Positions 26,140-41,924 of a stretch of DNA of 55,954 bases are shown here, piece by piece. The number at the start of each line of letters is the position of its first letter. Within the stretch, counting starts at the first letter, position 1. A program made the translations under genes and the position numbers. Under the pieces are notes generated by a model that was not told where the DNA came from, made no database searches, and saw only the letters and a list, made by a program, of their open reading frames with translations. The stretch comes from an uncultured Clostridia bacterium (GTDB lineage Bacteria; Bacillota; Clostridia; Oscillospirales; Oscillospiraceae): assembly GCA_946061515.1 (NCBI GenBank), contig CAMGRL010000011.1, positions 1-55,954 of the forward strand. Reading direction: 5' to 3'.

Positions 26140-26181
26140 GGCTTATCCTCCCGGCAGTTTTATACATTGAACAGTATAACG

Positions 26182-26222
26182 AAGAAGATGCACTTTGAAC
26201 ATTGCCAAAAATGCATCTTCTT
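26182..26222. repeat. Inverted repeat upstream of GH94
   Basis: AAGAAGATGCA (26182-26192) and TGCATCTTCTT (26212-26222) are perfect 11-base inverse arms with a 19-base loop. They lie about 45-85 bases before the GH94 start and also downstream of the ArsC-like gene. There is no T-run on the minus strand after the stem, so an operator is as likely as a terminator. Confidence 0.5.
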
Positions 26223-26270
26223 GATTTTGCTTGTCTTTCTTTTTCCGGAAGTCCGTCCCTGTTTTCTTTT

Positions 26271-26627
26271 TTACCTGCCCAGAACGGCGGCCCACTCGGC
26301 TTCCTTAAAGCCCACCAGCACGAAGCCGTCGCCGATCAGCAGGGGGCGCTTTACCAGCATGCCATCCGTGGCCAGCAGGGTAATCTGCTCCTCCTCGCTC
26401 ATGGCGGGCAGCTTTTCTTTCAGCTGCAATTCCTTGTACAGCAGCCCGCTGGTATTGAAAAATTTCTTCAGGGGCAGCCCGCTCTCTTTGTACCAGGCCC
26501 GCAGCTCTTGGGCACTGGGTTTATTGTCCTTGATGTGCCTTTCCTCAAAGGCAACGCCCTTCTCCTCCAGCCACTTTTTCGCCTTCAGGCAGGTGCTGCA
26601 TTTGGGATAACAGATAAATTGCATCAT
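26271..26627 (-). CDS. ArsC/Spx-family thioredoxin-fold protein
   Basis: The 118-residue protein has the ArsC/Spx layout: N-terminal redox CSTC motif in CYPKCSTCLKAKKWLEE, HIKDNKPSAQEL, the FNTSG segment, and the RPLLIGDGFVLVGF end carrying the conserved Arg. In Spx the CxxC acts as a redox switch for RNA polymerase binding; in ArsC the Cys reduces arsenate. No ars genes are nearby, so I lean to an Spx/YffB-like role. The first of two consecutive ATGs is used, 5-6 bases after AGGAG. It follows the rhodanese lipoprotein gene by 22 bp. Confidence 0.85.
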   Translation of the reverse strand: MMQFICYPKCSTCLKAKKWLEEKGVAFEERHIKDNKPSAQELRAWYKESGLPLKKFFNTSGLLYKELQLKEKLPAMSEEEQITLLATDGMLVKRPLLIGDGFVLVGFKEAEWAAVLGR

Positions 26628-26649
26628 ACCTTCTCCTTTTTCGTTTCTG

Positions 26650-27051
26650 TCATTCTCCGCCGGAGACGGTGTCTCCCGGCCAGTCCATAATGCCGCCGAA
26701 CTCCACAACATGGGTATAACCCAGGGCAGCCAGCTTTTCTGATGCCTGCTTGCTGCGGTTTCCGCTGCGGCAGTAGACCAGGATCAGCTGGTCCTTATCC
26801 GGAAGGGCCGGGATCTCCTCCGTTCCGATGGTCTCGTTGGGGATGCAGATGGCCCCGGGGATATGGGCATTTTCATACTCCTCCCGGGTGCGTACGTCCA
26901 GAAGGATATAGTTTTCCTCCCCGTCCATGATGGCGATGGCTTCCTCGGCCGTGACCTGCCGGTAGCCGTTTTTCGTCCCGCTCTCCTCCGGCGCGGCGGA
27001 ACAGCCGGAGAGGATGACCGCCAAAATGAGAAACAAAAGCAGTTTTTTCAC
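26650..27051 (-). CDS. Rhodanese-domain lipoprotein
   Basis: The 133-residue secreted lipoprotein has a signal peptide with lipobox LSGC, a short tether, then a single rhodanese domain (LLDVRTREEYENAHIPGAI) with active-site Cys in VYCRSGNRSKQA. It probably carries out sulfur transfer or thiol chemistry at the outer face of the membrane. The start is a GTG at 27051 because AAGGAGG lies 5 bases before it and the signal peptide begins there; an upstream in-frame extension would destroy the signal. It is in one transcript with the ArsC/Spx-like gene. Confidence 0.85.
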   Translation of the reverse strand: MKKLLLFLILAVILSGCSAAPEESGTKNGYRQVTAEEAIAIMDGEENYILLDVRTREEYENAHIPGAICIPNETIGTEEIPALPDKDQLILVYCRSGNRSKQASEKLAALGYTHVVEFGGIMDWPGDTVSGGE

Positions 27052-27079
27052 GTTTTCCTCCTTATATTCAATGAAGCGC

Positions 27080-27331
27080 TTACGATTTTTCCCGGGCCGG
27101 CCCCTTAAACCCCAGATCACCCAGGTATGTGCCGTTGTTTCTCAGCGTCATCTTCCAGGGAGCGTACCAGATCCTGTTTTCCGGGTCAGTCTTACAGCCG
27201 GACAGCATTTCACCGTAAGCACTGCGAAGCTCCTCCCCATCGGTTTTTTCTATCAGCGCTTCGATCTCTTCGTCTGACATGGGCGCGATCAGCATTCTCT
27301 TTGTTTTGATTATCGTCTCTCTCTTTTTCAT
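27080..27331 (-). pseudogene. GNAT acetyltransferase, N-terminal remnant
   Basis: The 83-residue frame reads as the start of a GNAT-family acetyltransferase of the type with TKRMLIAPMSDEEIEALIEK and NGTYLGDLGFKGPA, but ends just where the central strand and the acetyl-CoA-binding motif (Q/RxxGxG/A) should follow. Normal length is about 170-180 residues. No continuation is found in other frames before the rhodanese gene begins 28 bp later, so the 3' half was deleted. AAGGTGA lies before the ATG and it still heads the small operon. Confidence 0.65.
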
Positions 27332-27379
27332 TCTGATCACCTTATACTATTCTTCTGTTTTTCTCACCATTTATCAATC

Positions 27380-27388
27380 AGTATACCA
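27380..27388 (-). promoter_or_regulatory. Extended -10 promoter of the rhodanese/ArsC operon
   Basis: On the minus strand TGG-TATACT (27380-27388) is an extended -10 element about 50 bases before the acetyltransferase remnant; no good -35 is seen. Confidence 0.4.
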
Positions 27389-27447
27389 TGGATTATGAAA
27401 AAAGAAAGCTGCCGGGAAAAATTCTCTTTGGCATTTTTCCGCTGAAA

Positions 27448-27472
27448 AATGCCGTCCTCTCGGGACGGCATT
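27448..27472 (-). terminator. Terminator of the BY-kinase operon
   Basis: A 10-bp stem (27448-27457 and 27463-27472) is followed by a run of T in minus-strand reading, 3 bases past the stop codon of the last kinase gene. Confidence 0.8.
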
Positions 27473-27475
27473 CAG

Positions 27476-28891
27476 TCATTTCTTGGCGTAATTCTTATAG
27501 CTGCGGTAATACTCCCCGTAGCCGTAGTACCCGTAGGCCTTGCCCATGGCGCCGTGGCTGACGCAGTTGAGCACACAGCCGATCAGAGGCAGATCGTCGT
27601 CGGAAAGAAGCTGGATGCCTTCCAGGATCTGGCTCTTCGACGCATAGTCCTGCCGGATGGTGAGCAGGGCGCAGTCGGCCAGAACGGACAGCTCCGCCGC
27701 GTCCGCCAGCAGGGAGCAGGGCGGTGTGTCCAGAATGATGTAGTCAAAGACATTCCGGGCCTCGCTGATAAATTCCCGGGCCTTTTCCGTGGCCAGAAGC
27801 TCCGCCGCATTGGACACCGGCCTGCCGCCGTATACCGCGAAAAAGTTTTCCGTCTTCGTGGGGCGGATAAAGTCGCTGACAGAATGATTCCCCCGCAGAT
27901 AGTCGGACAGGCCCCGGGTGCCTTTTTCCCCCAGGACGCCGGCTATGGAGGGATTGCGCAGGTCGCAGTCCACCAGAAGGGTCTTGCTGCCCTTCTGGGC
28001 CAGGGCCAGAGCCAGATTGGCCGCCACCGTGGTCTTGCCTTCACCGGGGACAGCGCTGGACACCAGCAGCACCTTTTTTTCGTTCTTCTGCATTTCTTTT
28101 TCGACCCGGAGGCGCAGCAGACGCATGGCCTCAACAAAGCCGTACTGGTCCCCCTGTCCGGCCAGCCCGGGGTAGGTTTTGCTTTTCTGATAGGCCTTGA
28201 CCAGGGGCAGCATACCCAGGCAGCTCAGATTGACCAGACGCCGCAGCTCCTCTTCATTGTGGATCGTTGAACGGGCAAAGCTCAAAAACAGCACCGCGCA
28301 GATCCAAATGGCCAGGCCGAGGGCAAGCCCTTTTTTCACCGCGGCGCTATAGTCCCGGCTGTTGATGGGGGCTGTGGGCAGGCCGCTCTCATCCAGCAGA
28401 TACATGTCGGTAGGCCCCACCACAAATTCCGCAATGCTGGGATAATAGGTGATGACGGCGTTGAGCACATCGTAAGCCAGCTGCGGATCGCCGGAGGTCA
28501 CGGTCAAGGTGAAGATGTTGGTATTGTTCAGCACGCTGGCCGTCACCCGGGGCATGGAGGATATTCCCAGTTCCTTCATCACCTTGCTGCTCAGCGCGCC
28601 GCTGGTGAGAATATAGGGAAAGGTTTTCTGCATCTGTTCTGCTGTGGCTGTGTTATAGGTCCGGACTTCCGCCTGAAGAGGGTTGGTCACATAGACGGTA
28701 AAGGAGGCGCTGGCCTGATACTGTGGGGAATAAGAACGGTAGGTCCTCCAGCAGAAAAACGCGGCGAACAGGATGACCAGCAAAACGCCCGGGAGCAGAA
28801 GGCGCTTCGCGCCCCGGCGGAAATCCGAGATCAGTATGCCCAGGTCAATTTTGTTCCCGGCCATCTTTTTATCTGTGTAATCATTGCTCAT
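27476..28891 (-). CDS. Wzz/BY-kinase fusion (tyrosine autokinase), copy 1
   Basis: The 471-residue protein has a Wzz chain-length domain between two membrane helices (about residues 31-50 and 188-207) and a cytoplasmic BY-kinase domain. That domain holds Walker A VPGEGKTT (281-288), Walker A' LLVDCD (305-310), Walker B DYIILDTPP, and a Tyr-rich C-terminal tail with seven or more Tyr that is the usual autophosphorylation cluster. In polysaccharide loci such kinases set chain length and control polymerases. It is a fused protein, unlike the split CpsC/CpsD of streptococci. The nearest ribosome site (GGAGG) is 13 bases from the ATG, longer than usual. It is the last of three genes in the operon. 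Confidence 0.9.
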   Translation of the reverse strand: MSNDYTDKKMAGNKIDLGILISDFRRGAKRLLLPGVLLVILFAAFFCWRTYRSYSPQYQASASFTVYVTNPLQAEVRTYNTATAEQMQKTFPYILTSGALSSKVMKELGISSMPRVTASVLNNTNIFTLTVTSGDPQLAYDVLNAVITYYPSIAEFVVGPTDMYLLDESGLPTAPINSRDYSAAVKKGLALGLAIWICAVLFLSFARSTIHNEEELRRLVNLSCLGMLPLVKAYQKSKTYPGLAGQGDQYGFVEAMRLLRLRVEKEMQKNEKKVLLVSSAVPGEGKTTVAANLALALAQKGSKTLLVDCDLRNPSIAGVLGEKGTRGLSDYLRGNHSVSDFIRPTKTENFFAVYGGRPVSNAAELLATEKAREFISEARNVFDYIILDTPPCSLLADAAELSVLADCALLTIRQDYASKSQILEGIQLLSDDDLPLIGCVLNCVSHGAMGKAYGYYGYGEYYRSYKNYAKK

Positions 28892-28923
28892 GGTATGCTC
28901 TGTTCCTCCGGTTGTTCATCGGT

Positions 28924-30360
28924 TCACTGCTCACTGTATTTTCCATACTTTCCGTAACGGCCGTAGTGTCCGTATCCGTAGCCATATCCATAGCCCTCTC
29001 CCTGGGGCAGTGAATAGACGTTATTCACCACGCAGCCCAGCAGCTTGGACCTGGCGTTGTCCAGCGCCGTGGCCGCCCGGTTCAGGCCCTCCGACGTCAC
29101 ATAATTCTGCCGCACTACCAGCAGTGAAGCGTCCGCCAGTTCCATAATGAACTCCGCGTCCGACGCCACCGACATGGGCGGCGTGTCCACGATCACATAG
29201 TCGAAGTACTTGCGCGCCTCTTCCATCAGTCTGGCCATGCCCGGGGACCCGGCAAGCTCCGTATTGCTGCGCATGCCTTTGCGCTCCAGCAGCAGATACA
29301 GCTCCGTATCCTTCATGCGGACAATGGTGTCCTTCATTTCCGCCCGGCCGGCCACCACATCCACAGTGCCCACGCCTCTCCAGGGACACTCCAGGATCTT
29401 ATAGCAGGCAGGCTTCCGGAAATCGCAGTCCATCAGCAGCACGCGCTTGGATTTTTTGGCCATGGCCAGGGCCAGATTCACCGCGATGGTGGACTTGCCC
29501 TCGTTTTCCATCACACTGGTGATCATGAGGATCTGGCCGTCCTTCGGCATCTGCATCTCCACCCTGCGGCGCAGCTTCCGCATGGTTTCCGTAAACAGGA
29601 AGCTGGTGGTGGGTTTGGTGATCAGAATGCCGGTTTTCCGCCGTCTGAGCAAAGCGCCCAGAGTCTTGTACTTCTTTTCGTGATGAATTTCCCCCAGCAC
29701 CTGGCAGTTCAGCTTCTTTTCCGCCTCCTGTCTGCTGCGCACCGTATCCCGCCGGTAGGAGAGCAGGCCCAGCAGAACACACGTGGCCGCCGCGGCCAGG
29801 ACTGCCGCCTTTTTTAAATAAGAAAAGGAGGCGGCGGCGCTGACCGGCGCCACAGGCACCACCGGGTCCTGCAGGACCTCCAGAATGGTGTCGCCCAGCA
29901 CCTGGTAGGAGACAACGGAATGATTTTCAATGATCGCCCTGGTCACCAGAAAGGCGGTGCGCGGGTCGGAGGCCGTGACGCGTAAAGTGAGCAGGTTGGT
30001 CTCGGCAATGGCTGTGGCACTGATGGTTCCGTCAAAGGTGTTCATGCCCAAAGTCTGCAAAATGGTCTTGCGCAGAATGGAGCTGTTGAGCACCTCCGAA
30101 AACACGCTGGCCAGGTTGGTAGTGGCGGACAGGTTCTGATAAACCGTGGAAGAGCTGCCTTTTGCCGATACCACAAAGGTGGTAGTCGTAGCATAGGCCG
30201 GGGTATAAAGAAGGTCCGACAGCACATAGGCAGCCATCCCCGCAAGCAGGGCGGCAGCCAGAATGAGGTACCAGCGCCTCAGCACATCCTGCACAATGGT
30301 CAGCGGGCTGAAGGACAGCAGAGAGATCTGCTCGTTCTGATTTTCTGTCTTTTCCTGCAT
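28924..30360 (-). CDS. Wzz/BY-kinase fusion (tyrosine autokinase), copy 2
   Basis: This 478-residue paralogue of the downstream gene has membrane helices at about 31-50 and 183-202, Walker A ENEGKST (285-291) with Glu-Asn where copy 1 has Pro-Gly, Walker A' LLMDCD (308-313) and DYVIVDTPP. The tail is a GYGYGYG-type Gly/Tyr run ending GKYGKYSEQ. Two adjacent complete kinases may act as a pair of unlike subunits. Its ribosome site lies in the last codons of the upstream gene, so the two are translationally linked. No glycosyltransferase, flippase or polymerase gene accompanies them in the window. Confidence 0.9.
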   Translation of the reverse strand: MQEKTENQNEQISLLSFSPLTIVQDVLRRWYLILAAALLAGMAAYVLSDLLYTPAYATTTTFVVSAKGSSSTVYQNLSATTNLASVFSEVLNSSILRKTILQTLGMNTFDGTISATAIAETNLLTLRVTASDPRTAFLVTRAIIENHSVVSYQVLGDTILEVLQDPVVPVAPVSAAASFSYLKKAAVLAAAATCVLLGLLSYRRDTVRSRQEAEKKLNCQVLGEIHHEKKYKTLGALLRRRKTGILITKPTTSFLFTETMRKLRRRVEMQMPKDGQILMITSVMENEGKSTIAVNLALAMAKKSKRVLLMDCDFRKPACYKILECPWRGVGTVDVVAGRAEMKDTIVRMKDTELYLLLERKGMRSNTELAGSPGMARLMEEARKYFDYVIVDTPPMSVASDAEFIMELADASLLVVRQNYVTSEGLNRAATALDNARSKLLGCVVNNVYSLPQGEGYGYGYGYGHYGRYGKYGKYSEQ

Positions 30361-30366
30361 AAGCGC

Positions 30367-31209
30367 TTACTCCTCCACCACCACGATCAGCCGTGTATAG
30401 CCGGTATAATTGCCGTATTTCACCGTATAGGCCACGCTGTAAGTCCCCGGCGTGCCGGTGCTGACATCAGAACTGTAGGTGACGGAGACCCGGTCTCCGT
30501 AGTTTTTCAAATCGATCAGCTCCCCGCTGACGCGCAGCGCGCTCAGATATGAATTGGGGTCAAAGCGGGCGCCTTTTTCCAGATAGACCAGGTTTTCGCT
30601 GAGCTCCACGGCGGCATTGTACGCGTTGGAAGCGTAGACCTCCACCGGGACTGTCAGATAGACGGTGTCGTCCATGCTGTTCGTCACGCGAAATTCCACC
30701 AGATGCATGCCCTCCGCCGTAATGGAGCTGTCCCGGCTGACCAGCGTGGCCTTGATCCGGTCATCCAGCGCCCCGTCGATCGCATCCACGGCCCCAATAT
30801 AGTTAAGGACGTTGAAAGAGGTCCCGCTACGGAACACCAGCGGCGCGGACAGGGTGAAGCGGGGGCTTTCATAATCAATATAACGCAGTGTGCGCTTTGC
30901 TTTTGCCACATTCCCGGCCTTGTCGAAGGCGGCGTAGGTCACCTCAGCGGTATGATCCGGTTCCAGATCGGAGATGCCCTCTACCACAAGGCTGCCCGTC
31001 ACATCTCCGTCCCGGCTGTCCCTGGCGGTGACCCCGCTGAGCAGCTCAGCCTCCGTCACGCCGACGGAGACTTCGATCTCCTCATTCAGAAAAGAAATCT
31101 CAGGGGCGGTATGATCGACCGCCTGCCTGGAGAGGACAAAATAAGCCGCGAAAGCAATGCAGCACAGCGCCGTAAAAAACAAAACGCTCTTTTTTCCCTT
31201 TACCCTCAC
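30367..31209 (-). CDS. Membrane-anchored protein with DUF5011-type Ig-like domains
   Basis: The 280-residue protein has an N-terminal membrane anchor (residues 8-26) and an extracellular part with one clear DUF5011-like Ig domain (DHTAPEISF...VGVTEAELLSG...ARDSRDGDVTG...FDKAGNVAK) and two further beta-rich units. Such domains bind or present surface polymers. It starts the operon with the two BY-kinases, so it may be an outer partner of their Wzz domains. The start is GTG at 31209, 8 bases after GAGGAG. Confidence 0.8.
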   Translation of the reverse strand: MRVKGKKSVLFFTALCCIAFAAYFVLSRQAVDHTAPEISFLNEEIEVSVGVTEAELLSGVTARDSRDGDVTGSLVVEGISDLEPDHTAEVTYAAFDKAGNVAKAKRTLRYIDYESPRFTLSAPLVFRSGTSFNVLNYIGAVDAIDGALDDRIKATLVSRDSSITAEGMHLVEFRVTNSMDDTVYLTVPVEVYASNAYNAAVELSENLVYLEKGARFDPNSYLSALRVSGELIDLKNYGDRVSVTYSSDVSTGTPGTYSVAYTVKYGNYTGYTRLIVVVEE

Positions 31210-31316
31210 CGATCATTCTCCTCAGGCGCCGCGCGGAAACCGGCTTGTTTTCCGGGCGCGGCGCAGTATATTCTCTGTCCGGGAGGGCTTTTGACATACC
31301 ATCCCATAATAAAAGT

Positions 31317-31345
31317 ATTTTATATCCAGCTTCTGTATAAATCAA
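31317..31345 (-). promoter_or_regulatory. Promoter of the BY-kinase operon
   Basis: On the minus strand TTGATT (31340-31345), 17 bases and TAAAAT (31317-31322) precede a leader of about 100 bases. Confidence 0.45.
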
Positions 31346-31474
31346 GGGAAAATTTTGCAAAACGGCGCAAAGTTCGTCGCCAAGCCCATGCAGGATGTTC
31401 CTCAACCGGCAGTATTCCCTGTTGGCTGACCGGTTTGGTTCCCCGCCCCCATGTTTTCCTTTTCATTTCCGGTT

Positions 31475-31491
31475 TATGTAAACTTAACATA
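31475..31491. promoter_or_regulatory. Palindrome in the divergent control region
   Basis: TATGT-AAACTTA-ACATA is a 17-bp inverted repeat roughly midway between the two divergent promoters of the 31210-31741 region. It may be an operator. Apart from this, the promoters and the leader hairpin, I see no gene in that 532-base gap. Confidence 0.35.
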
Positions 31492-31572
31492 GATATTGTG
31501 TATGTATCTATTTTTGAACACAATATATTGAAAATTGTTAAAATTATCACCGGAAAAATTTGTTTTTTCTTA

Positions 31573-31601
31573 TTGACAAAACCGTCCTCAATAACTATAA
31601 T
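31573..31601 (+). promoter_or_regulatory. Perfect consensus promoter of the peptide-modification operon
   Basis: TTGACA (31573-31578), a 17-base spacer and TATAAT (31596-31601) match consensus at every position. Transcription would start near 31608, leaving a leader of about 134 bases before the PqqD-like gene. Confidence 0.8.
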
Positions 31602-31640
31602 TTTCTGATAGATACTGGGAAACTGGGCGTAGTATTTTTT

Positions 31641-31660
31641 CATAGGGGCATACCCCTATG
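31641..31660 (+). other. Leader hairpin before the PqqD-like gene
   Basis: CATAGGGG and CCCCTATG are perfect 8-base inverse arms around CATA, in the 5' leader of the operon. There is no T-run, so it may be a leader structure affecting stability or translation, or an operator. Confidence 0.4.
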
Positions 31661-31741
31661 ACTTTCCCGCAGGGAACGTCCCGCATCCCGGCACAGGGCG
31701 CTTTTCCTGGCAATTTTCCGCCGGACCGGAAGGATGGGTAT

Positions 31742-32008
31742 ATGAAGATCAAAGACAACTTTATTCTCCGTGAAATCGCCGGCGAGCATATTCTGATCCC
31801 CGTGGGGGAAGCGGCTCTCCGTGTCCACGGGATGGTCACTTTAAGTGAAAGCGCCGTTCTGCTCTATGAAAAGCTGCAGAACGAATGTGATGAAGAAGAT
31901 CTGGTGAATGTGCTCACCGCCGAATACGAGGTAGACCGGGACGAGGCTCTGCGGGATGCAAAGGCTTTCCTGGACCAGATGCGGCAGGTCGGCATATTGG
32001 AAGGATGA
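31742..32008 (+). CDS. PqqD-family peptide chaperone (RRE)
   Basis: The 88-residue winged-helix protein has the PqqD pattern: FILREIAGEHILIPVG, LSESAVLLYEKL and YEVDRDEALRDAKAFLDQM followed by a hydrophobic end. In peptide natural-product loci PqqD-type RRE domains bind the leader of the precursor and hand it to a radical SAM enzyme. Here both a candidate precursor (32801) and a radical SAM/SPASM protein (33924) are in the same operon, which supports that role. It is the first gene after a consensus promoter. Confidence 0.88.
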   Translation: MKIKDNFILREIAGEHILIPVGEAALRVHGMVTLSESAVLLYEKLQNECDEEDLVNVLTAEYEVDRDEALRDAKAFLDQMRQVGILEG

Positions 32009-32012
32009 TTCA

Positions 32013-32768
32013 ATGAGAGCGAAGAAACGTAAGCCGCAGAAGCTGGGCCTGGCGCTGCTGGTGCTGCTGTGTGTTCTGATGCTGCTTTTGCTGAGCTGGG
32101 GCGGATCCTCAGCCAGTCCGGGCAAGACGCCCGCAGAAGCAAGCCCCGAGCCGGTCAGCGCCGAGGAGACGCCCCCGCTTCCCACCCCAGCTGTTCAGCA
32201 GGACGAGCCCCGCTTTAATGTGGAGCTGCCTTACGACTTGGAGGGCGGCGAGCTGCGGATCATTTCCCTGTTTCAAACCGACGCGCTGAACCCGGACTGC
32301 GACAATGCGGAGGGAAGCGACCTGGCCTCGGTGGAGTTGGTGAATCTTTCGGACAGCTATCTGGAGGAAGCCCGGCTGACCATCCTTTTGACCGACGGAA
32401 CGACCCTGGAATTTCTTGTGCAGGATCTGCCTGCCGGAATGACCGTATGGGCCTTTGAAACCGGAAACCAGAGCATTTCAGACGACGCGAAATGCGAGAA
32501 GGTCGACTGCACGGCCCAGTTTCTGGACGCCCAGCCGCTGATGAGCGGCATAAGTACGGAGGCAAACGACGCCAATCTGACCGTGACGAACCAGACCGGC
32601 GCGGATATCGCTGTTTTGACCCTGCGGATCCACTGTCTCTTTGAAAACGTTTATTTCGGCGGAAAATCCGTTGAATATACTATTGATAATTTAGCAAACG
32701 GCGCTGCGGCGGAGATCTACGCTGCGGAATGTTACATGGGAACGGCCCAGGCCGTCTCCATCCGATGA
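32013..32768 (+). CDS. Membrane-anchored protein of unknown function in the RiPP-like operon
   Basis: I do not recognise this 251-residue protein. It has a basic N terminus (MRAKKRK), one hydrophobic helix (about residues 12-29), a Pro/Glu/Ser-rich linker to about 65 and a beta-rich extracellular domain of about 185 residues with three cysteines. It begins 4 bp after the PqqD-like gene with GGAAGG before the ATG and precedes the precursor gene by 32 bp, so it is probably a dedicated part of the system, for example an outer receptor, immunity or processing partner. No protease motif is visible. Confidence 0.7.
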   Translation: MRAKKRKPQKLGLALLVLLCVLMLLLLSWGGSSASPGKTPAEASPEPVSAEETPPLPTPAVQQDEPRFNVELPYDLEGGELRIISLFQTDALNPDCDNAEGSDLASVELVNLSDSYLEEARLTILLTDGTTLEFLVQDLPAGMTVWAFETGNQSISDDAKCEKVDCTAQFLDAQPLMSGISTEANDANLTVTNQTGADIAVLTLRIHCLFENVYFGGKSVEYTIDNLANGAAAEIYAAECYMGTAQAVSIR

Positions 32769-32800
32769 TGCCGTGTTCAGATACAGGAAGGAGAACGAGA

Positions 32801-33052
32801 ATGAAGAAATATGTGAAGCCTGAGCTCTTTTTCGAAAGCTTCGAGCTTAGCCAGAGCATCGCAGCCTGCGGGATTGATGTAAAAAATTTGACCAGTAAAG
32901 AAGATTGCGCAGCGCTTGACGAAGAATTCTGGCCGGGAATGGGCGGTACTCAAGTTTTCCAGGCAGATGCGTGTACTTTGGACTTTAATACCATTGAAGT
33001 CTACTGCTACACCTATGGCACCAGCGAGGCCGGAAGGGTGTTCAACTCCTGA
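32801..33052 (+). CDS. Candidate RiPP precursor peptide
   Basis: The 83-residue peptide has an N-terminal KKYVKPELFFESFELSQ segment, a clostridial-type leader with alternating hydrophobic and charged residues, then SIAACG and an acidic, aromatic-rich C-terminal region with Cys at 23, 36, 58 and 69, a GMGG turn at 46-49 and YCYTYG at 68-73. AGGAAGGAGA gives a strong ribosome site, and the stop overlaps the start of the kinase-like gene (TGATG), coupling their translation. Size, context and strong ribosome site support a precursor whose Cys or nearby residues would be modified by the radical SAM enzyme; the exact core and cleavage site are unknown. Confidence 0.75.
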   Translation: MKKYVKPELFFESFELSQSIAACGIDVKNLTSKEDCAALDEEFWPGMGGTQVFQADACTLDFNTIEVYCYTYGTSEAGRVFNS

Positions 33053-33921
33053 TGGCTGAGCGGCGGCTTTACCGCCTGAGCATTTCCGGTGTAGGGATCA
33101 CCATCGCTTCACCCCGGCCCTTGCCGGTGACGGAGCGCTTTGCCCCTTTCCTCACGGAGGAGCGCGGAACGGACTTTCTTGTGGAATGCCGCGAAGTCCC
33201 CGCCCTTGCTGTCCCCTGCGGCGAACCGGTGTATAAAGGAGAGCGCTTCTGGGTCTGGCCGGACGAATGCGGCGGTTTTTCCCGCTGGTACTTTGACGGG
33301 ATGCAGGACAATGCTTTCTTTGCCCGCGCCCGGCAGGCCGGGGCCGACCGCGTCCTGGTGGACTATTCCCCCATTGGGCGTGAGCTGGTCTCCGACATGG
33401 GCAACTGCTTTGCTTTCAGCGGCTGGGAAATGCTGCTCCTCCAAAAGGGGAGATTGCTGCTTCACGCCTCCTGTGTGGACACTCCACTGGGCGGCCTGCT
33501 GTTCTCCGGCCCCTCAGGCATTGGGAAAAGCACCCAGGCAGAGCTGTGGCGGCAGTACGCGGGCGCAGAGTTGATCAACGGCGACCGGCCCATCCTCAGC
33601 CGGGATGAACAGGGCTGGCGCGCCTGGGGTTCTCCTTACGCCGGTTCCTCCCGCCACTTTGTGAACGAGAGCTGTGTTCTCCGTGCCGTCGTCCTGCTGA
33701 AGCAGGCAAAAAGCTGCAGTCTTCGCCGTCTCAACGGTGCGGATGCTTTCCGCCGGGTGTTCGCCGGAACAACGGTGAACAGCTGGAATAAGTCCTCCGT
33801 TCTGCACGTCTGCGAGCTGACGGAACGGCTGGTCTCCGCGTTGCCGGTGTACGAACTGTCCTGCACGCCTGACCGGGCGGCGGTGGAGCTGCTCCGGGCC
33901 GAATTGGAGAGAAAGGCGTAA
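33052..33921 (+). CDS. HPr-kinase-like protein of peptide biosynthesis
   Basis: The 289-residue protein is related to the C-terminal catalytic domain of HPr kinase/phosphorylase: P-loop FSGPSGIGKST (residues 151-161), INGDRP with Asp178, and a later AGSSRHFVNE segment. The first 120 residues do not match HPrK. HPrK-like enzymes occur in several peptide natural-product loci (for example some lasso peptide clusters, where they phosphorylate the peptide). It overlaps the precursor stop by one base and is followed 2 bp later by the radical SAM gene, so a direct action on the peptide is a reasonable inference. It is not true HprK, which acts on Ser46 of HPr and is about 310 residues with a different N domain. 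Confidence 0.8.
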   Translation: MAERRLYRLSISGVGITIASPRPLPVTERFAPFLTEERGTDFLVECREVPALAVPCGEPVYKGERFWVWPDECGGFSRWYFDGMQDNAFFARARQAGADRVLVDYSPIGRELVSDMGNCFAFSGWEMLLLQKGRLLLHASCVDTPLGGLLFSGPSGIGKSTQAELWRQYAGAELINGDRPILSRDEQGWRAWGSPYAGSSRHFVNESCVLRAVVLLKQAKSCSLRRLNGADAFRRVFAGTTVNSWNKSSVLHVCELTERLVSALPVYELSCTPDRAAVELLRAELERKA

Positions 33922-33923
33922 AC

Positions 33924-35054
33924 ATGACTGAGAATCCTACCATCAGCCCCACCCGCCTGACGGAGTACATGTACACCAAGGCCGGAAGAATGGGCGTACC
34001 CATAGGGGGCACCTTTGAGCTGTCTCCGGTCTGCAACTTTGCCTGCCGCATGTGCTATGTGCGCAAGACGGCCAAAGAGGTTGCGGAGAGCCAGCGACCC
34101 ATCCTGACCCTGGACGATTGGCTGAGAATTGCCCAAGAGGCCCGGGAGCAGGGCATGCTGTATCTGCTTCTGACCGGCGGCGAGCCCTTCTTATGGCCCC
34201 ATTTCTGGGAGCTGTATGAAGAGCTGGTCAAAATGGGCTTTTTGGTGTCCATCAATACCAACGGCTCTCTGATTGACGATAAAGCGGTGGAGCGGCTGAA
34301 GCGCCTGCCGCCCCGCAGAGTCAATATCACGCTCTACGGCGCAAGCGATGAGACCTACGAGGCGCTGTGCCAGACCAAAGGCGTTTTTACCAGAGTTACC
34401 CACGCCATCGAGTCACTGCGAAAGGCCGGCATCCTGGTCAAGCTCAATGGCACCATGACGCCGGATAACATCTGTGATCTGGATTACCTGATCGACTACG
34501 CAAAGGACCGGGGTCTGATCCTTGAGACCACTACATATTTGTTTCCTCCTGTCCGGCGCGACCCCTCCATGACCGGCGTCAACCGCCGCTTCACCCCGGA
34601 GGAATCCGCCCGGTATCAGATGCATATATTCCGCCGCCAGAACGGCGAGGAGCGGTATCAGGCTTATCTTGAAGCCATTGCCAAAGGCTCCATTCCCCCG
34701 CCGGGACTGGACGAGTCCTGTATCGACCCTGTGGACGGCAAGGTCCGCTGCCGTGCGGGCCGGGCCGCTTTCTGGGTCACCTGGGACGGTCGGCTCACCC
34801 CCTGCGGCATGATGACCCAGCCCACAATTGAACTGAGAGGGCAGAGCTTTGGCGATGCCTGGCAGCAGCTCCGGGAGGAAATGGGCCGCGTGGCCCTGTC
34901 CGGTGTCTGTGCCAAATGTCCCGACCAGCAGCTCTGTCACGCCTGCGCCGCTATGGCCCAGACGGAGACCGGCGCCTTTCAGGGCGTCCCCCGCTACCTC
35001 TGTGAAATGGTTGCGGCCCTGCGCAAGCTGGCCGAAACCGGCCTTGACCCCTGA
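33924..35054 (+). CDS. Radical SAM/SPASM peptide-modifying enzyme
   Basis: The 376-residue enzyme has the radical SAM cluster CNFACRMC (Cys37, 41, 44), a GGEPF motif for SAM binding, a partial TIM barrel, and a C-terminal SPASM-type region with at least six Cys (CIDP, VRCRAG, TPCGMM, CAKCPDQQLCHAC) for auxiliary iron-sulfur clusters. PqqE-, AnSME- and sactisynthase-like members make carbon-carbon or carbon-sulfur bonds in peptides. With the PqqD-like protein and the Cys-containing peptide, a thioether or C-C crosslink is the likely product. It is the last gene of the tight operon. Confidence 0.9.
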   Translation: MTENPTISPTRLTEYMYTKAGRMGVPIGGTFELSPVCNFACRMCYVRKTAKEVAESQRPILTLDDWLRIAQEAREQGMLYLLLTGGEPFLWPHFWELYEELVKMGFLVSINTNGSLIDDKAVERLKRLPPRRVNITLYGASDETYEALCQTKGVFTRVTHAIESLRKAGILVKLNGTMTPDNICDLDYLIDYAKDRGLILETTTYLFPPVRRDPSMTGVNRRFTPEESARYQMHIFRRQNGEERYQAYLEAIAKGSIPPPGLDESCIDPVDGKVRCRAGRAAFWVTWDGRLTPCGMMTQPTIELRGQSFGDAWQQLREEMGRVALSGVCAKCPDQQLCHACAAMAQTETGAFQGVPRYLCEMVAALRKLAETGLDP

Positions 35055-35200
35055 AAGCGCCCCGCGTTAAATCCGCGCCGCACGGTCAAAGGCGCCCCCT
35101 TGGTGGGGAGGCAAAAGCACCCCCGGCAATCCTGCGAATAACAATTTCATTCGCATTATTTATAGATTGTATATCCTACTACGAAAAGAGGAGGAACATT

Positions 35201-38200
35201 ATGTTGAAGAAACTGACAAAAGTACTGTCTCTCCTGCTGATCCTCTGCATGATGGTCAGCATTTTCCCTGTGGTGGCTCTGGCCGACGAAGGAGCAGTGG
35301 AGCCCGCCGTCACGGAGACGCCGGAAGAAACAACGCCCGTGGTCACTCCCGTTCCCGAGGAGAGCCCTGTCCCCTCAGAGACGCCCGCAGTGGAAGAGTC
35401 TCCTGTCCCCTCAGAGACGCCTGCTGACAGCACTCCCGTTGAGGACGTGCCCGCCGCAGACGGTTCTGCCGACTTTGCACTCCCCAAAGATAATGCTGCG
35501 GATGAGGAAGAAGAGAAAGAACTCACTCCCGAGGATATCTATGCTCTCATTCCTGCCCTTTACACCGGCAGCCCCTCCGGCGATGCTTTCTATAAGATCG
35601 TCCATGTTGACTGCGGCAGAAAGTACTTCAGCCCGGAAAACATTAAAGAGATCATCGACAATGCTGCCGCCGCCGGTTTCAACCAGGTGGAGCTGTATCT
35701 GTCTGATAACCAGGGATTCCGCTTCGCTCTGGATGATATGAACGTCACCACCAGCACCGGAAACACCTATGATCTGACTCCCGCGCTGGGCGATGGCTAT
35801 TCAGACGGCAGCAAGTACCCTGACGGCTCCGGCAAGTATCTGACCCAGAGTGAGATGACCGATATTATCTCCTATGCTGCCGGGAAGGGCATCGACATTG
35901 TTCCCTGCATCAATGTCCCCGGCCACATGGGCGCTATTCTGGAGGTGTTTACTCAGTTTAAATACTCCGGCTCCAACAGCTCTATCAACCTGGAGAATGC
36001 CGAGGCTGTGGCTTTCGCTCTTGCCATTACGGAAAAGTATGCTACCTATTTTGAGAGCCAGGGTGTGAAGTACTATAACCTGGGCGCTGACGAGTACGCT
36101 AACGACCTGTCCACCATGGGCTTCCAGGGTCTGTACACCTCCGGTAAGTATCAGAAGTTCGTCGATTTTCTGAACAGCGCGGCTCAGATCGTCATGAACC
36201 ATGGCATGACGCCCCGCGCTTTCAACGATGGCATTTACTACAACGAAGATAATACATACTCCATTGATTCTGCCATTCAGGTCTGCTACTGGTCCTGCGG
36301 CTGGAACGGCTACAATCTGGCCTCTGCCCAGTACATTGTGAACCAGGGCATGGATGTGATCAACACCCACGGCGATTACTACTGGGTTCTGGGCAACACC
36401 AGCTGGCAGTGCAGTGCAGATAAGGCTTCGAAGTTTGATTACACCTCCTTCCAGTACCGTACCGGCACTACCGGCAACGGCACCATCTCCGACCCTGCCG
36501 GTGCAATGTTCTGCATCTGGTGTGATGTAGGCAATGCCAACGGAACCGACGGCGGCACCGCTGTTGTCTCCGCCACCGCAGACGTGATCGCCGCGTTCGG
36601 CGCGGCTCTGCCCGCTTCCGAATCCGGCGGCGGCAGCGAAACTGAGATAACCATCCAGAAGGACGGCAATGACGTTACCACCTTCTCTGTGAAAATGGAT
36701 GGGACCGCCACATTGAGTCTTTCCGACAGTGAAGCCACCGCCACATGGTCCTCCAGCAATGAGAGCGTGGCCACTGTGACTGCGGTGACCGCCGCACGTT
36801 CCACTGAAGTAGTAGCAAACTCCGTCACCGTCAATCCGGTGGGCGAAGGTACTGCCACCATCACTGCGACACTCTCCGACGGAACTGCACTGACGACGGA
36901 AGTCACTGTCGCCGCCGCCGGTACCTCCGTTGATCCGGCGTGGAATAAAGAGATCGTACTCGAAGTGGGCGATACGACGCACGAAAACCAGGAGAACGTC
37001 AACAACAAAGGAAACGTTGACCGGACAAACTTGGATACCAACATTGCTACTGTTGATGTGGACGGTGTTGATCCCGTTGAAGCTTCCACGAAATATGACA
37101 AGGCTTCCGTCAGCTGCAATAATCTGATTTCCGGCGACAAAAGCGACTGGACTGCGGTCAGCGGCTATTACTACAAGGCTGACGATGTCAATTACTATCC
37201 TGTATACGCAAAGAGAAGTAGTGAAGGATTTTTATTTTGGTATACTTATACCTACACTTGGGGCTACTCCACTACCAGCAGCACCAGCAACGTGACCCAA
37301 ATCGGCACTCAGAAAACAGACTCTACTTCCGATACCCCCAACATCACAGTTTACACTAAATCAACATCTGCTGGTTCCCCCGCCTCCACGACGATCACTT
37401 TCACAGGCGTCAACCCCGGCACGACCTATGTAAAAGTCGGCGAAACTACTTATAAGATCATTGTTAATTATAAGCAGAAAACCATCAACGCTACCGTCGA
37501 TCAGGAGACTGAGGTAACTGTCAGCGGTGAACTTGATGCCACAAAGCTGGATACCTCTATTGCCCAGGTCAGTGTAGATAACGGTATTATGACTGTAACC
37601 GGCGTTGCCGAAGGCGAGACGCAGGTTACTGTTGGAAACACCATCTATACCATTAAAGTTGCCAAAGAGGATCTGAGCAAGGTCACCCCGCTGACGGTTG
37701 AGTTCTGGATCACCAACCAGCAAGTCACGGCAAATGAAGCCACCTCAATGACCATTGCGGCCAGCACTGCCGGCGTGTACAGTGAGAACGGTGTGGACAT
37801 TTCCACTCTTGTTCCTTCTTCCGGCAAACAGGGTGGCAACACTATGGTTTTCTGGAAAGGCACTCGTCTTGCCAGCGACAATAAGCAGACTACCGATTCT
37901 GGCGTTGACAAGACGACCTCCGGCACGGATTTCACCTACATCCGTTACTGGAACGGCTCTTGGGCCTACTCCTCTGACGGTAAGACCTGGACCAATGTGG
38001 AATCCGGCGATCAGATCGTGGCCTATTATCTTCAGCGGACGGATGTTACCGAAGAGATTACCACACAGGTGGTTGACTGGGGCCCCAAGAAGGATAACTG
38101 GAGCGAATTGAATTATCTGGGAACAAGGTACGTTCTGGTTGACTACACTGTGAAATATGAATCTGGCGAGGAGACGCCGTCTTCTTTCCCGACAGAAAAT

Positions 38201-40504
38201 TCCCTCGGCTTCCACTGTGATACCCAGAACATGAAAGACAACTACTATTATCGTACGCTGGGCATGATCCGCGGTGTGGAAACGGCGGACTATGAAGTTT
38301 ACATGATCACAGTGACGCCCACCAGCGATAGTCCCTCTACAGTTCTTGCAAGTACCGCAGCGGGCAATACCAGTTATTCATATAATGGTACTGAGGTTGT
38401 CGCATGGGTTGCGACTCAGGAGGACTTGGATAACAGCGGCCTTGGTACTTACACCAGTATTTCCGGAGCATTTACCTGTAGCATCGGTGGTGAGCCGATT
38501 GTAAGCGGATTGGAAATTTACCGTCAGCAAGGCATGAAAGTGACGTTCTACGTCCGCGCCAAGGTTACCGAGGACTCCCTGGCTGTCCACTACATTGACC
38601 AGACCGCCAACCAGGAGTTCTACAGCTATAACATCGCCGTGAAATCCGGCACCCTGTTCAACGAGGACATCGGCTTGGCTGACTCCTGGAAGGGCAACTT
38701 GGTCAACGGCTCCGTGACCAACCTTAAGGGCAAGACCCAGACCGTTTCCGCGGACCTGTCCACCATGCCCGCCATTGGCGCACAGTACCGTTACAGCGAT
38801 TATACTTGTGTAGAGGTTGTACGCAGTGAAGATGGCAAGGAAGTAACGCTGTACTATACTTTCAACAATGCTCATTCCTTTGTTGTCGACTTCGGCTTGC
38901 CGCTGACGATCACCAAAACCGATCTGGGTATCAGCGGTGACTGGACTTCCGCAAGCGTTTCCGGCGCTCAGTACGGCACTGCCGCTGCCACTGTAGGAGA
39001 TGGCGTGACCTATACGCCCACCCAGACACTGAAGGGAGTTGAGACGCTCCAGTTGACCCTGACGGATTCCACCGGCTCTGTTACTCACCAGATTTACATC
39101 TACCCCGCCACCACCGTGTACTACGAGGAAGGCTTCGCCGTTTCCGGCGAAAGTAAGGGAAGCGGCAATCAGGCTCTCTATGCCGGCGGCGAGAGCAAGG
39201 ATGAGTACGGCTATGACGCAAAGTACTTTAATGAGCAAAACGGCCCCTCCAACGGTACGCAGGTCAGCCTTACCAAGGACAGCGGAACACCAAGCTTCAG
39301 CTTCACCGGCACCGGTGTGGACATCTACACCAACAACACATCTGCTTCCGGTACGCTGGCTGTTATGATTACCACAGAAAGCGGCAGCCTGGTCAAACTG
39401 GCCCGTGTGGTCACCGCCATGCAGAATGGCAGCACCGGTGCCACCACCGGGCAGGAAGTCACCGCATACAACGTCCCTGTGTTCAGCGTGGATAACCTGG
39501 CACATGGAAACTACGTTGTCAAACTTTCCGTTGTGGACGGCACAGTAAACCTTGACGGCTTCCGCGTCTATGGCACGCTGGCAACCGAGCCCGCTTTCTA
39601 TACGACCGATAAGGAAGACAATCCCACATTCATCGAGCTGCGTGACCAGGTTCTTTGCGGCTTGAGCGTAACACCTGACGGCTCCGGTCAGGTCAATGCA
39701 GCCCTTCCGACTGATACAACGGTTGCTGTCGTTGCATCCTCCGATAAGTACACGCAGGAAAATGTGAACGACCTTTTGACCAACGGCCCGAAGAACGAGA
39801 TTTATCTCCAGCCCAATCAGGCCCTTGTTCTGAAGATCACCACGGCCCGTGAGGTTCAGATCGGCCTGAAGGCCCTCAATGCGGCAACCACTTACACCAT
39901 CAACAATGAGTCTAAGTCCATCAGCACCAGCACCGATATGTTCTACACAGTGCTGAATAAGGGAACTTCCGATGAGCAGACCATCACCATCACCAACACC
40001 GGCAGCGGCATCCTGTCCATCACCAAGCTGAAGATCTGCGACGATCCCGGCGCTGCGCTGGGTGAGCTGACCGAAGAGGATCTGATCCCCGCTCTGGTCA
40101 GCCTGGGTTATGAGCTTGAGCCCGAAGAGCCTGAAATCCAGTACGCCGACGCCACCCTGACTGTTGAGGTCAACGGCCAGACCGCCACCCTCACCAAAAA
40201 CGGTGTTGTGGGCGAGTCCGCCACCTTCACCGCAGCGGAGATCGAAGCCGCTGCCCAGAATCTGGTTCCCGATGGCTATGAGCTGAAGGATCAGGCAGCG
40301 GACGTGACCGTGGCCTACGGTGATTCCTCCACCGTCAGCCTCAGCGCGGAAGCGATTCCCACCGAGCCTGAACAGCCCGAGGAGCCTGAGAAGCCCGCCG
40401 AGCCCCAGCAGCCCGAACAGCCCGACAAGCCCGCAAACATCATTTCCGCCGTGATCCGCCTGATCGACAGGATATTCGGCTCCCTCAAGGGCTTGTTCCG
40501 TTAA
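35201..40504 (+). CDS. Large secreted GH20-type surface protein
   Basis: The 1767-residue protein starts with a signal peptide (cleavage after about residue 28), a Pro/Glu/Thr linker with a PVPSETPA duplication, and a GH20 beta-N-acetylhexosaminidase-like barrel (about residues 115-465). The barrel has IDIVPCINVPGHMGAIL and an Asp297-Glu298 pair (YYNLGADEYAN), the place of the GH20 catalytic Asp-Glu. After this come Ig-like Big2 modules, a beta-rich middle part with several repeats of about 100-150 residues, and a PEPEKPAEP linker before a short amphipathic end (IISAVIRLIDRIFGSLKGLF). No LPxTG or SLH motif is present. GAGGAGG precedes the ATG. It lies 146 bp after the radical SAM gene, whose relation to it is unknown. 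The likely role is host or microbial glycan (N-acetylhexosamine) breakdown at the cell surface. Confidence 0.85.
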   Translation: MLKKLTKVLSLLLILCMMVSIFPVVALADEGAVEPAVTETPEETTPVVTPVPEESPVPSETPAVEESPVPSETPADSTPVEDVPAADGSADFALPKDNAADEEEEKELTPEDIYALIPALYTGSPSGDAFYKIVHVDCGRKYFSPENIKEIIDNAAAAGFNQVELYLSDNQGFRFALDDMNVTTSTGNTYDLTPALGDGYSDGSKYPDGSGKYLTQSEMTDIISYAAGKGIDIVPCINVPGHMGAILEVFTQFKYSGSNSSINLENAEAVAFALAITEKYATYFESQGVKYYNLGADEYANDLSTMGFQGLYTSGKYQKFVDFLNSAAQIVMNHGMTPRAFNDGIYYNEDNTYSIDSAIQVCYWSCGWNGYNLASAQYIVNQGMDVINTHGDYYWVLGNTSWQCSADKASKFDYTSFQYRTGTTGNGTISDPAGAMFCIWCDVGNANGTDGGTAVVSATADVIAAFGAALPASESGGGSETEITIQKDGNDVTTFSVKMDGTATLSLSDSEATATWSSSNESVATVTAVTAARSTEVVANSVTVNPVGEGTATITATLSDGTALTTEVTVAAAGTSVDPAWNKEIVLEVGDTTHENQENVNNKGNVDRTNLDTNIATVDVDGVDPVEASTKYDKASVSCNNLISGDKSDWTAVSGYYYKADDVNYYPVYAKRSSEGFLFWYTYTYTWGYSTTSSTSNVTQIGTQKTDSTSDTPNITVYTKSTSAGSPASTTITFTGVNPGTTYVKVGETTYKIIVNYKQKTINATVDQETEVTVSGELDATKLDTSIAQVSVDNGIMTVTGVAEGETQVTVGNTIYTIKVAKEDLSKVTPLTVEFWITNQQVTANEATSMTIAASTAGVYSENGVDISTLVPSSGKQGGNTMVFWKGTRLASDNKQTTDSGVDKTTSGTDFTYIRYWNGSWAYSSDGKTWTNVESGDQIVAYYLQRTDVTEEITTQVVDWGPKKDNWSELNYLGTRYVLVDYTVKYESGEETPSSFPTENSLGFHCDTQNMKDNYYYRTLGMIRGVETADYEVYMITVTPTSDSPSTVLASTAAGNTSYSYNGTEVVAWVATQEDLDNSGLGTYTSISGAFTCSIGGEPIVSGLEIYRQQGMKVTFYVRAKVTEDSLAVHYIDQTANQEFYSYNIAVKSGTLFNEDIGLADSWKGNLVNGSVTNLKGKTQTVSADLSTMPAIGAQYRYSDYTCVEVVRSEDGKEVTLYYTFNNAHSFVVDFGLPLTITKTDLGISGDWTSASVSGAQYGTAAATVGDGVTYTPTQTLKGVETLQLTLTDSTGSVTHQIYIYPATTVYYEEGFAVSGESKGSGNQALYAGGESKDEYGYDAKYFNEQNGPSNGTQVSLTKDSGTPSFSFTGTGVDIYTNNTSASGTLAVMITTESGSLVKLARVVTAMQNGSTGATTGQEVTAYNVPVFSVDNLAHGNYVVKLSVVDGTVNLDGFRVYGTLATEPAFYTTDKEDNPTFIELRDQVLCGLSVTPDGSGQVNAALPTDTTVAVVASSDKYTQENVNDLLTNGPKNEIYLQPNQALVLKITTAREVQIGLKALNAATTYTINNESKSISTSTDMFYTVLNKGTSDEQTITITNTGSGILSITKLKICDDPGAALGELTEEDLIPALVSLGYELEPEEPEIQYADATLTVEVNGQTATLTKNGVVGESATFTAAEIEAAAQNLVPDGYELKDQAADVTVAYGDSSTVSLSAEAIPTEPEQPEEPEKPAEPQQPEQPDKPANIISAVIRLIDRIFGSLKGLFR

Positions 40505-40512
40505 AACCTCAG

Positions 40513-40547
40513 ACATGACCACCCCACCCGGGTGGTCATGTTTTTTT
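40513..40547 (+). terminator. Terminator of the GH20-type gene
   Basis: A 12-bp perfect stem (40513-40524 and 40530-40541) is followed by seven T in the tail. Confidence 0.9.
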
Positions 40548-40582
40548 GCCTTCAAGCCTCCCCCTAATGGGGAGCCTTCGTG

Positions 40583-40657
40583 CGGGCCGCCACACAGGGC
40601 GGCCCCTACAACACCTTTTTTAGTGGGGCCGTAGGGGCGGCCCTGCGTGGCCGCCCG
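40583..40657. repeat. Imperfect inverted repeat, dispersed-element type
   Basis: Arms of about 27 bp (40583-40609 and 40631-40657), both built from GGGCGGCC/GCCGCC and GTAGGGGC motifs, flank a short AT-rich loop. Paired with the next entry it fills much of 40548-40901, where I find no gene. Such GC-rich extragenic repeats are common in clostridial genomes. Confidence 0.5.
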
Positions 40658-40691
40658 CCTGCCGTGCAAAAAATTGCTGTCATCCTGATCG

Positions 40692-40747
40692 AAGCGAAGG
40701 ATCCCGTATGGTTACGCTTGGCGTTCTGTTCACGGGATTCTTCGCTT
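40692..40747. repeat. Inverted repeat with GAAGCGAAGGATCCC-type arms
   Basis: AAGCGAAGGATCCCGT (40692-40707) and its near-perfect inverse (40732-40747, one mismatch) enclose 24 bases. It looks like a decayed short mobile repeat of the kind found at many sites in Firmicutes. The remaining bases up to 40901 hold nothing I can name. Confidence 0.5.
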
Positions 40748-40901
40748 ACACCTTGCCGCAATTGCCGTTTGCGTGCATGCATCACGACAGGCCCACAAAG
40801 CGGCGCAGCTGCGGAAATTGCGGGCCGCCTTTCTCTGGCAACGACAGCCCGCTCGCCGGGGAGGACAGTGGATTGCCCTCCCCGCTCCCGGAAGAGACTT
40901 T

Positions 40902-41450: not shown

Positions 41451-41471
41451 TGTGTCACCACCTCCACGGTT

Positions 41472-41500
41472 AACATAATACATTAAAAAGCCCCGGTCAA
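41472..41500 (-). promoter_or_regulatory. Promoter of the small secreted protein gene
   Basis: On the minus strand TTGACC (41495-41500), 17 bases and TATGTT (41472-41477) lie about 22 bases before the start codon. Confidence 0.5.
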
Positions 41501-41557
41501 GGGCTTCGACAAAAGAAGTCAGAACAAAGCTTTTTTCAAAAAAACGCTGTCCGCCCA

Positions 41558-41586
41558 TTGACAAAGTATACTATGCATTGTATAGT
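41558..41586 (+). promoter_or_regulatory. Promoter of the PadR-DUF1700-DUF4097 operon
   Basis: TTGACA (41558-41563), a 17-base spacer and TATAGT (41581-41586) lie just before the PadR gene and overlap the palindrome at 41568-41588. Confidence 0.75.
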
Positions 41587-41588
41587 AT
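41568..41588. promoter_or_regulatory. Candidate PadR operator
   Basis: ATACTAT-GCATTGT-ATAGTAT is a 21-bp inverted repeat with perfect 7-base arms covering the spacer and -10 of the promoter. The position and arm type fit autorepression by the PadR protein encoded directly downstream. Confidence 0.7.
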
Positions 41589-41922: not shown

Positions 41923-41924
41923 AC

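Follow-up and report, generated by a model that had tools for sequence, protein, structure and literature searches.

A five-gene operon in an uncultured member of the Clostridia (Oscillospiraceae) probably encodes a new family of ribosomally synthesized and post-translationally modified peptides (RiPPs), in which modification by a radical S-adenosylmethionine (SAM) enzyme would be joined to phosphorylation of a C-terminal Ser. The operon lies on contig CAMGRL010000011.1 of assembly GCA_946061515.1, and the whole stretch that was analyzed, 55,954 nucleotides in length, is referred to below as the window. Five plus-strand genes, with intergenic gaps from 5' to 3' of 4, 32, -1, and 2 bp, make up the operon:

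31742..32008, plus strand: PqqD-type RiPP recognition element (RRE), a leader-binding protein of 88 aa; Pfam PqqD, 1.7e-15
32013..32768, plus strand: membrane-anchored protein, 251 aa; N-terminal helix and two predicted beta-sandwich domains
32801..33052, plus strand: putative precursor, 83 aa; leader YxxP (Y4, P7), core C23, C36, C58, and C69-Y70, C-terminal Ser83
33052..33921, plus strand: HprK/PEPCK-fold kinase-like protein, 289 aa; P-loop GPSGIGKST, invariant H138, K159, and D178
33924..35054, plus strand: radical SAM protein with a SPASM-type Cys set, 376 aa; CxxxCxxC at 37-44, then C276, C294, C329, C332, C338, C341, and C360

This arrangement agrees with a preliminary description of the same DNA, made from the sequence alone, which had given the five genes the same places and gaps. 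The gene identities that it proposed are borne out by the Pfam matches to PqqD and Radical_SAM (5.1e-28; SPASM, at 0.0046, falls below the cut-off) and by a modeled kinase-type fold for the HPrK-like protein. As a whole, its reading is partly supported; it did not include the C-terminal Ser, the hypervariable core, the large surface protein, or the capsule-gene neighbors described here.

The cassette is genuine, and it is patchy yet recurrent. A seven-row radical SAM alignment run against genome contigs gave 321 confirmed relatives, and the best 80 of these 321 were kept, with one record present twice among them (L016 = L024). The resulting set of 81 loci consists of the window and the 80 relatives, and because the latter were picked by radical SAM similarity, the counts lean to the window type. 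A gene was counted if it lay no more than ~5 kb from the radical SAM gene. Hidden Markov model (HMM) iterations over the window, the paralogue loci, and the 80 relatives served to find the PqqD, anchored, HPrK-like, and capsule proteins. The layouts come from these HMMs and a purpose-made open reading frame (ORF) caller that takes the longest ORF, and their starts and gaps are rough. Precursors entered the locus counts only if they ended in Ser or came from L057 or L074, which removed 3 ORFs whose loci hold another precursor. The alignments retained 75 of 83 HPrK-like ORFs (A3), 65 of 75 sequences in A4, 76 of 81 radical SAM proteins (A5), and 67 of 81 leader hits (A6).

Counted in this way, an HPrK-like gene accompanies the radical SAM gene in 73 of the 81 loci; the anchored protein does so in 70, the precursor in 66, and PqqD in 49. 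Among the 52 loci flanked by 3.5 kb or more on each side, the respective counts are 46, 44, 45, and 35. The HPrK-like and anchored proteins, which had been regarded as unusual additions, are instead the most constant parts of the cassette. The preliminary description had also held that its RiPP idea would fail if homologous loci routinely lacked the short peptide, and the precursor counts are consistent with that idea. The order precursor-HPrK-radical SAM is found in 58/81 loci; 19 have the full layout of the window (PqqD-anchored-precursor-HPrK-radical SAM), and 30 have the layout precursor-HPrK-radical SAM-anchored. Median gaps between cassette neighbors range from -11 to 33 bp, subject to the rough starts. 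Judged by their database records, the relatives belong to the Bacillota, largely the Clostridia, and the records give gut sites for many of them. A peptide match of any kind at E<=0.1 occurs in 6 of 99 genomes, the own genome included, and is convincing in G000 and G012 only; a radical SAM match at 1e-90 occurs in 9 of 391 genomes of the class, again with the own genome included. With 80 relatives, a one-genome curiosity was rejected, although the distribution is patchy.

The precursors share a fixed C-terminus. The profile used to select them covers only the first ~30 residues, the leader, and is therefore blind to the C-terminus. Selected at E<0.01, 76 of 80 peptides end in Ser, or 75 of 79 with L016 and L024 counted once, compared with 21 of 443 ORFs from eight neighboring families as background. 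When the radical SAM proteins are clustered at 60% identity, all 22 clusters with a peptide include one that ends in Ser, and at 70% 45 of 46 do, so the result is not due to near copies. The four exceptions have A, K, T (..IFSST), and Y (..IFGSY) as the final residue, and the A and K cases probably reflect chance matches. The precursor alignment omits L025|6501 and L028|10765, both of them misses in the 76 of 80, as well as L029|144 (E 0.02). Phe occupies the antepenultimate position in 60 of 77 precursors, and 74 of 77 contain [Y/W]xxP within the first 20 residues, a motif that the leader profile itself favors. Among 69 short precursors, from which eight of at least 105 aa were excluded, there are four Cys in 53, five in 8, three in 7, and six in 1; all 69 keep the last Cys, with Tyr directly after it in 64. 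Given this pattern of leader, core, and C-terminus in dozens of relatives, the possibility that the 83-aa peptide is a chance ORF was rejected. It is also very improbable that the short ORF encodes a small structural or regulatory protein rather than a substrate. A length of 71-99 aa, with eight others up to 144 aa, is long for RiPP precursors and would suit such a protein, but a conserved leader with an RRE motif, a variable core, a fixed C-terminus, and a fixed place beside the enzymes argue for a substrate.

Between these fixed ends, the core is hypervariable. A comparison of the window with L023 gives DNA identities within the precursor gene of 97.3% for the leader (residues 1-25), 51.2% for the core (26-68), and 81.2% for the tail (69-83), while the enzyme genes are nearly identical (HPrK 97.5%, radical SAM 98.3%). 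The values for PqqD (88.0%) and the anchored gene (87.0%) come closer to the 85% seen in the neighboring capsule genes. The same dip is seen against L024, with 96.0% in the leader, 57.4% in the core, 91.7% in the tail, 86.3% in HPrK, and 88.2% in radical SAM. The core has thus been either swapped or evolving far faster than its surroundings, with the Cys and both ends retained. Such a near-complete exchange of the core beside enzyme genes that hardly differ suggests that diversifying pressure is strong, with rivals, phages, or the host as possible sources.

Seven C-terminal Cys, corresponding to the Cys set of a SPASM-type auxiliary cluster, are invariant in 76 radical SAM rows, and the best solved match of the radical SAM profile is the sactisynthase SkfB (1.4e-19). 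The window PqqD has only two solved sequence matches at E<=0.1, TfuB1 and TbiB1, both of which are lasso-peptide RREs. Sactipeptides and ranthipeptides thus resemble the window in their SPASM-type radical SAM enzyme, Cys-containing core, and match to SkfB, whereas the window differs in its separate PqqD, kinase, and anchored protein. The sactipeptide/ranthipeptide-type label given earlier is accordingly not established. A related alternative is that the enzyme forms ordinary thioethers of this type, the product is a secreted bacteriocin, and the phosphate is an accessory. This explanation is tentative, the less likely course on present evidence; the four conserved Cys and the similarity to SkfB agree with it, and a hypervariable core suits an arms race. 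However, the operon has no recognized exporter or protease and lacks an immunity gene if the anchored protein does not fill that role, large surface proteins are frequent and some capsule genes lie alongside, and the precursors have no clear match to bacteriocin families (StsA in 2/67, best 0.00085).

The HPrK-like protein is best read as a kinase of the type found with paeninodin and the linear polyphosphorylated peptides (LPPs; Popov et al., 2026; PMC13381572), acting on the C-terminal Ser. Its structure model (mean pLDDT, the predicted local distance difference test score, 96.2) matches the HprK/PEPCK fold, and a P-loop is present. According to a review, PadeK, the paeninodin kinase, and its relatives act on the C-terminal Ser (PMC9266682). 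As a control, the phylum was surveyed with a lasso-type PqqD model, which found 12 of 398 genomes at 1e-10 and 9 of 398 over the cut-off, and 12 loci were fetched; 'lasso-type' here denotes a match to the PqqD model alone. The cassette kinase profile A3 detects an HPrK-like gene in 11 of the 12, and at the twelfth, L143, neither a kinase nor a precursor was found. All 11 lasso-type precursors identified beside these genes end in Ser; they come from 8 of the 11 loci (L137-L142, L144, and L145) and were hand-picked by motif and place among mechanically listed ORFs. The protein could instead be another kind of ATP user, for example one that activates the C-terminal residue, with the Ser kept for recognition or linkage. 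This is unlikely, since HPrK-like genes next to lasso-type precursors with a Ser end are picked up by the very same profile, and since all 75 HPrK-like rows keep the P-loop residues, H138, and D178 unchanged.

LPP systems are close to the window in several respects. According to the sections consulted of Popov et al. (PMC13381572), they combine a discrete RRE, an HprK-like kinase, a YxxP leader, and a variable core in capsular polysaccharide loci of Bacillota, and [Y/W]xxP is the motif bound by discrete lasso and LPP RREs. In contrast to the window, their clusters include a signal-peptidase-like leader peptidase, a nucleotidyltransferase (NTase), and an MsbA-like pump. The window in turn differs in its radical SAM gene, anchored protein, and C-terminal Ser, and the word 'radical' occurs 0 times in the LPP main text (PMC13381572). 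The window does have a discrete RRE and, judged by its modeled fold, an HprK-like kinase in the cluster. No LPP peptidase, NTase, or MsbA-like pump was recognized by eye among the genes at 26000-42500, part of which were also Pfam-scanned, and of the leader motif YxxPxVLxHQxIxFETxxS reported in the same source, the window leader YVKPELFFESFELSQS shares YxxP only, again by eye. Membership in the LPP group was rejected on the peptidase, NTase, pump, and leader motif. A looser relationship is conceivable, in which a radical SAM gene joined an LPP-kind cassette whose central event is phosphorylation, with leader cleavage by a signal-peptidase-like enzyme coming afterward. The features shared with LPPs favor it, as do the peptidase-, ABC-, and NTase-type genes beside some relatives. 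It appears possible but doubtful, given that all three gene types are unrecognized at the window operon, that so little of the LPP leader motif is shared, that the conserved Ser is the last residue, and that radical chemistry goes unnamed in the LPP main text.

Two other known systems were considered. As with the window, paeninodin-type lasso peptides have a C-terminal Ser, an HprK-like kinase, a discrete RRE, and a [Y/W]xxP leader, while the window differs in its ~60-aa core, four Cys, and radical SAM enzyme. No match to the lasso peptidase B2 or macrolactam synthetase C was found among the five operon proteins, the rest of the genome not having been searched; on this basis membership among the lasso peptides was rejected, in spite of the Ser end beside an HprK-like gene. 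The SynChlorMet cassette (NCBIfam ScmA-F) brings together PqqD-type, HprK-like (ScmC), and radical SAM/SPASM proteins and has two radical SAM genes. Its models are the nearest in NCBIfam by content, but the window has one radical SAM gene. The ScmC model matches 47 of 75 HPrK-like rows (best 9.4e-11) and ScmE matches 37 of 76 radical SAM rows at 1e-20. Membership was rejected because the window proteins reach 12.0 bits of 125 for ScmC, 70.9 of 400 for ScmE, and 69.7 of 400 for ScmF. In the open-licence PMC literature, the pairing of radical SAM chemistry with terminal Ser phosphorylation was not found, nor was a paper that combines HprK, radical SAM, and precursor peptide, or PqqD, HPr kinase, and radical SAM. 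Among the matches listed, only PMC4289311 has HPr kinase together with the other three subjects sought, and the text consulted places it in lasso clusters; in a further listing, none of the papers combined all four subjects. In the consulted text of a 2021 review of radical SAM RiPPs, 'kinase' and 'phosphorylat' occur 0 times (PMC8326336).

Several observations weigh against the proposed pairing of radical SAM modification with Ser phosphorylation. The sequence match to HPrK is weak (Pfam Hpr_kinase_C, 0.096; NCBIfam HprK_rel_B, 1.4e-6, 27.7 bits of 200), and in the sections of Popov et al. consulted, the LPP kinase acts on core Ser3 and not on the last residue (PMC13381572). At the lower-scoring PqqD loci L146-L148, which have HPrK-like hits, the YxxP-type peptides end in V, T, or D, and at L138, also with an HPrK-like hit, one peptide ends in D and the others in S. 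The eight radical SAM loci of the class survey (L116-L123) contain an HPrK-like gene in 8/8 and PqqD in 7/8, two of the contigs being short; the anchored protein is matched in just 1/8, and the peptides end in Ser only in L116, L117, and L122. The L119 peptide ends in Thr, and those of L118, L120, L121, and L123 likewise do not end in Ser. From these more distant loci it follows that the C-terminal Ser is a mark of the window-type cassette and its near kin and not of every locus with radical SAM and HPrK genes. PqqD is absent near the radical SAM gene in 32/81 loci (17 of the 52 with 3.5 kb flanks), and neither an exporter nor a leader peptidase was recognized in the operon. Capsule-type genes, meaning the chain-length/tyrosine kinase, CpsB-type phosphatase, and Ig-like surface protein, occur in just 25/81 loci (14 of 36 with 7.5 kb flanks), fractions that stand without a random-region control. 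Finally, every reaction step is deduced from sequence and models.

In the scheme proposed here, PqqD would bind the YxxP part of the leader and present the 83-aa precursor to the SPASM-type radical SAM enzyme, which would modify the ~60-residue core. Thioether cross-links are likeliest because of the four conserved Cys and the SPASM-type enzyme, and other radical cross-links are possible. The HPrK-like kinase would add phosphate to the C-terminal Ser side chain, and like the lasso and LPP kinases it might do so more than once. The leader would be removed, perhaps near ..IAA|C, and export would be carried out by enzymes encoded elsewhere in the genome. The anchored protein, for which two beta-sandwich domains are predicted (mean pLDDT 88.9) and no Pfam family passes the cut-off, would sit outside the membrane and hold, receive, or help export the product.

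That the operon has no visible exporter or protease had been stated before, and none is recognized in it. The absence does not extend to all relatives, some of which have genes close by for an ABC exporter, a peptidase with weak S24 similarity, and a nucleotidyltransferase, the family labeled NTase being a mix of NTP_transf_5 proteins and short S24-like ones. In the own genome, a peptidase-like relative (44% to the L079 peptidase; no Pfam family at 0.001) stands alone on contig C32, and several ABC exporters occur elsewhere, at most 37% identical to the L019 exporter. There, the window locus is the only place where an HPrK-like gene or a PqqD over the cut-off was found, and no second copy of the window peptide was found at E<=0.1 in this genome, which is 81% complete. 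A second radical SAM gene (38%) lies on contig C16 (L021, 7205-9036) beside a second capsule locus, with a nearby 134-aa precursor ending ..ATAKS; no PqqD or HPrK-like HMM hit was found in its 15 kb, and this system may borrow the PqqD and HPrK-like proteins of the window. In L061 (14036-16442) and L066 (13425-16228), the capsule locus also contains a second small gene group. This group has PqqD and HPrK-like genes of its own and a precursor that reads ..ANEYVAACWK.. and ends in NPNAS.

The sequences around the operon include a promoter, a possible operator, and cell-surface genes on both sides:

31573..31601, plus strand: sigma-70-type promoter TTGACA-17-TATAAT, 12/12 consensus positions
31640..31661, no strand assigned: perfect 9-bp inverted repeat, possible operator or hairpin, in the 5' leader between promoter and PqqD
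35201..40504, plus strand: large secreted surface protein with a GH20 domain, 1767 aa; functional link suggested by neighborhood only
30367..31209, minus strand: Ig-like surface protein of the divergent polysaccharide set (context); PF16403, 1.1e-11
28924..30360, minus strand: Wzz/tyrosine-kinase-type chain-length protein (context); Wzz 8.4e-8, AAA_31 1.3e-13
27476..28891, minus strand: tyrosine-kinase-type protein of the polysaccharide set (context); AAA_31 6.4e-16

The exact consensus promoter had been noted in the preliminary description, correctly. Both of its hexamers are retained in the alignment with L023 and L024, where the whole upstream region is merely 52-57% identical. The arms of the inverted repeat are both altered yet complementary in L024, and the second arm is lost in L023. 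No terminator-like site was found on the plus strand in the 146 bp between the radical SAM gene and 35201. Farther away in the window, a class B sortase-like protein (TLSTC) was seen by eye at 7407-8189, followed by a large secreted repeat protein (8358-11156), and at the right end (52919-55876) one protein appears by eye to start with a zinc-ribbon-like region and to contain a TIR-like part and RCC1-like repeats.

A same-strand large surface protein, a category that takes in any ORF of at least 700 aa whose start looks signal-like by a crude criterion, is present within ~8 kb in 54/81 loci, a fraction again without a random-region control. The domains include GH20 in the window, BNR/sialidase-like repeats in L024 and L045, and a weak, below-cut-off von Willebrand A domain in L049. 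In the same position behind related cassettes, GH20 in the window (35201-40504) is replaced by a BNR/sialidase-like domain in L024 (10659-16487), with a similar C-terminal part (62% identity against G012 over query residues 124-667). Large surface proteins often end in an acidic/Pro-rich linker and a short aromatic amphipathic tail (..IRNWFNGRR, ..DFFKSLFRW), as in L029, L041, L045, L053, L055, L059, L063, L067-L069, and others, and 40400-40504 of the window is similar by eye; a crude tail rule flags 21 of 41 such proteins, the window's own not among them. Possibly, this is a surface-attachment tail.

Overall, the capsule genes and the large secreted glycosidase- or adhesin-like neighbors point to a job at the cell surface. 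The cassette would unite radical SAM chemistry with terminal Ser phosphorylation in the tailoring of one peptide. It provides precursors, a conserved residue as candidate substrate, and a gene set small enough for tests in Escherichia coli. It also bears on a question left open in the consulted text of Popov et al., the role of phosphorylated RiPPs in capsule loci (PMC13381572). A far more speculative and rather improbable reading is that the cassettes form a new RiPP class whose peptide, hypervariable and radical-cross-linked, is displayed on the surface, where the phosphate on its C-terminal Ser would tether it to capsule polysaccharide or to the membrane-anchored two-sandwich protein as receptor. 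If so, it would explain why phosphopeptide cassettes, namely those of paeninodins, LPPs, and some of the loci described here, lie in capsule loci, and it would give these Clostridia a changeable peptide coat.

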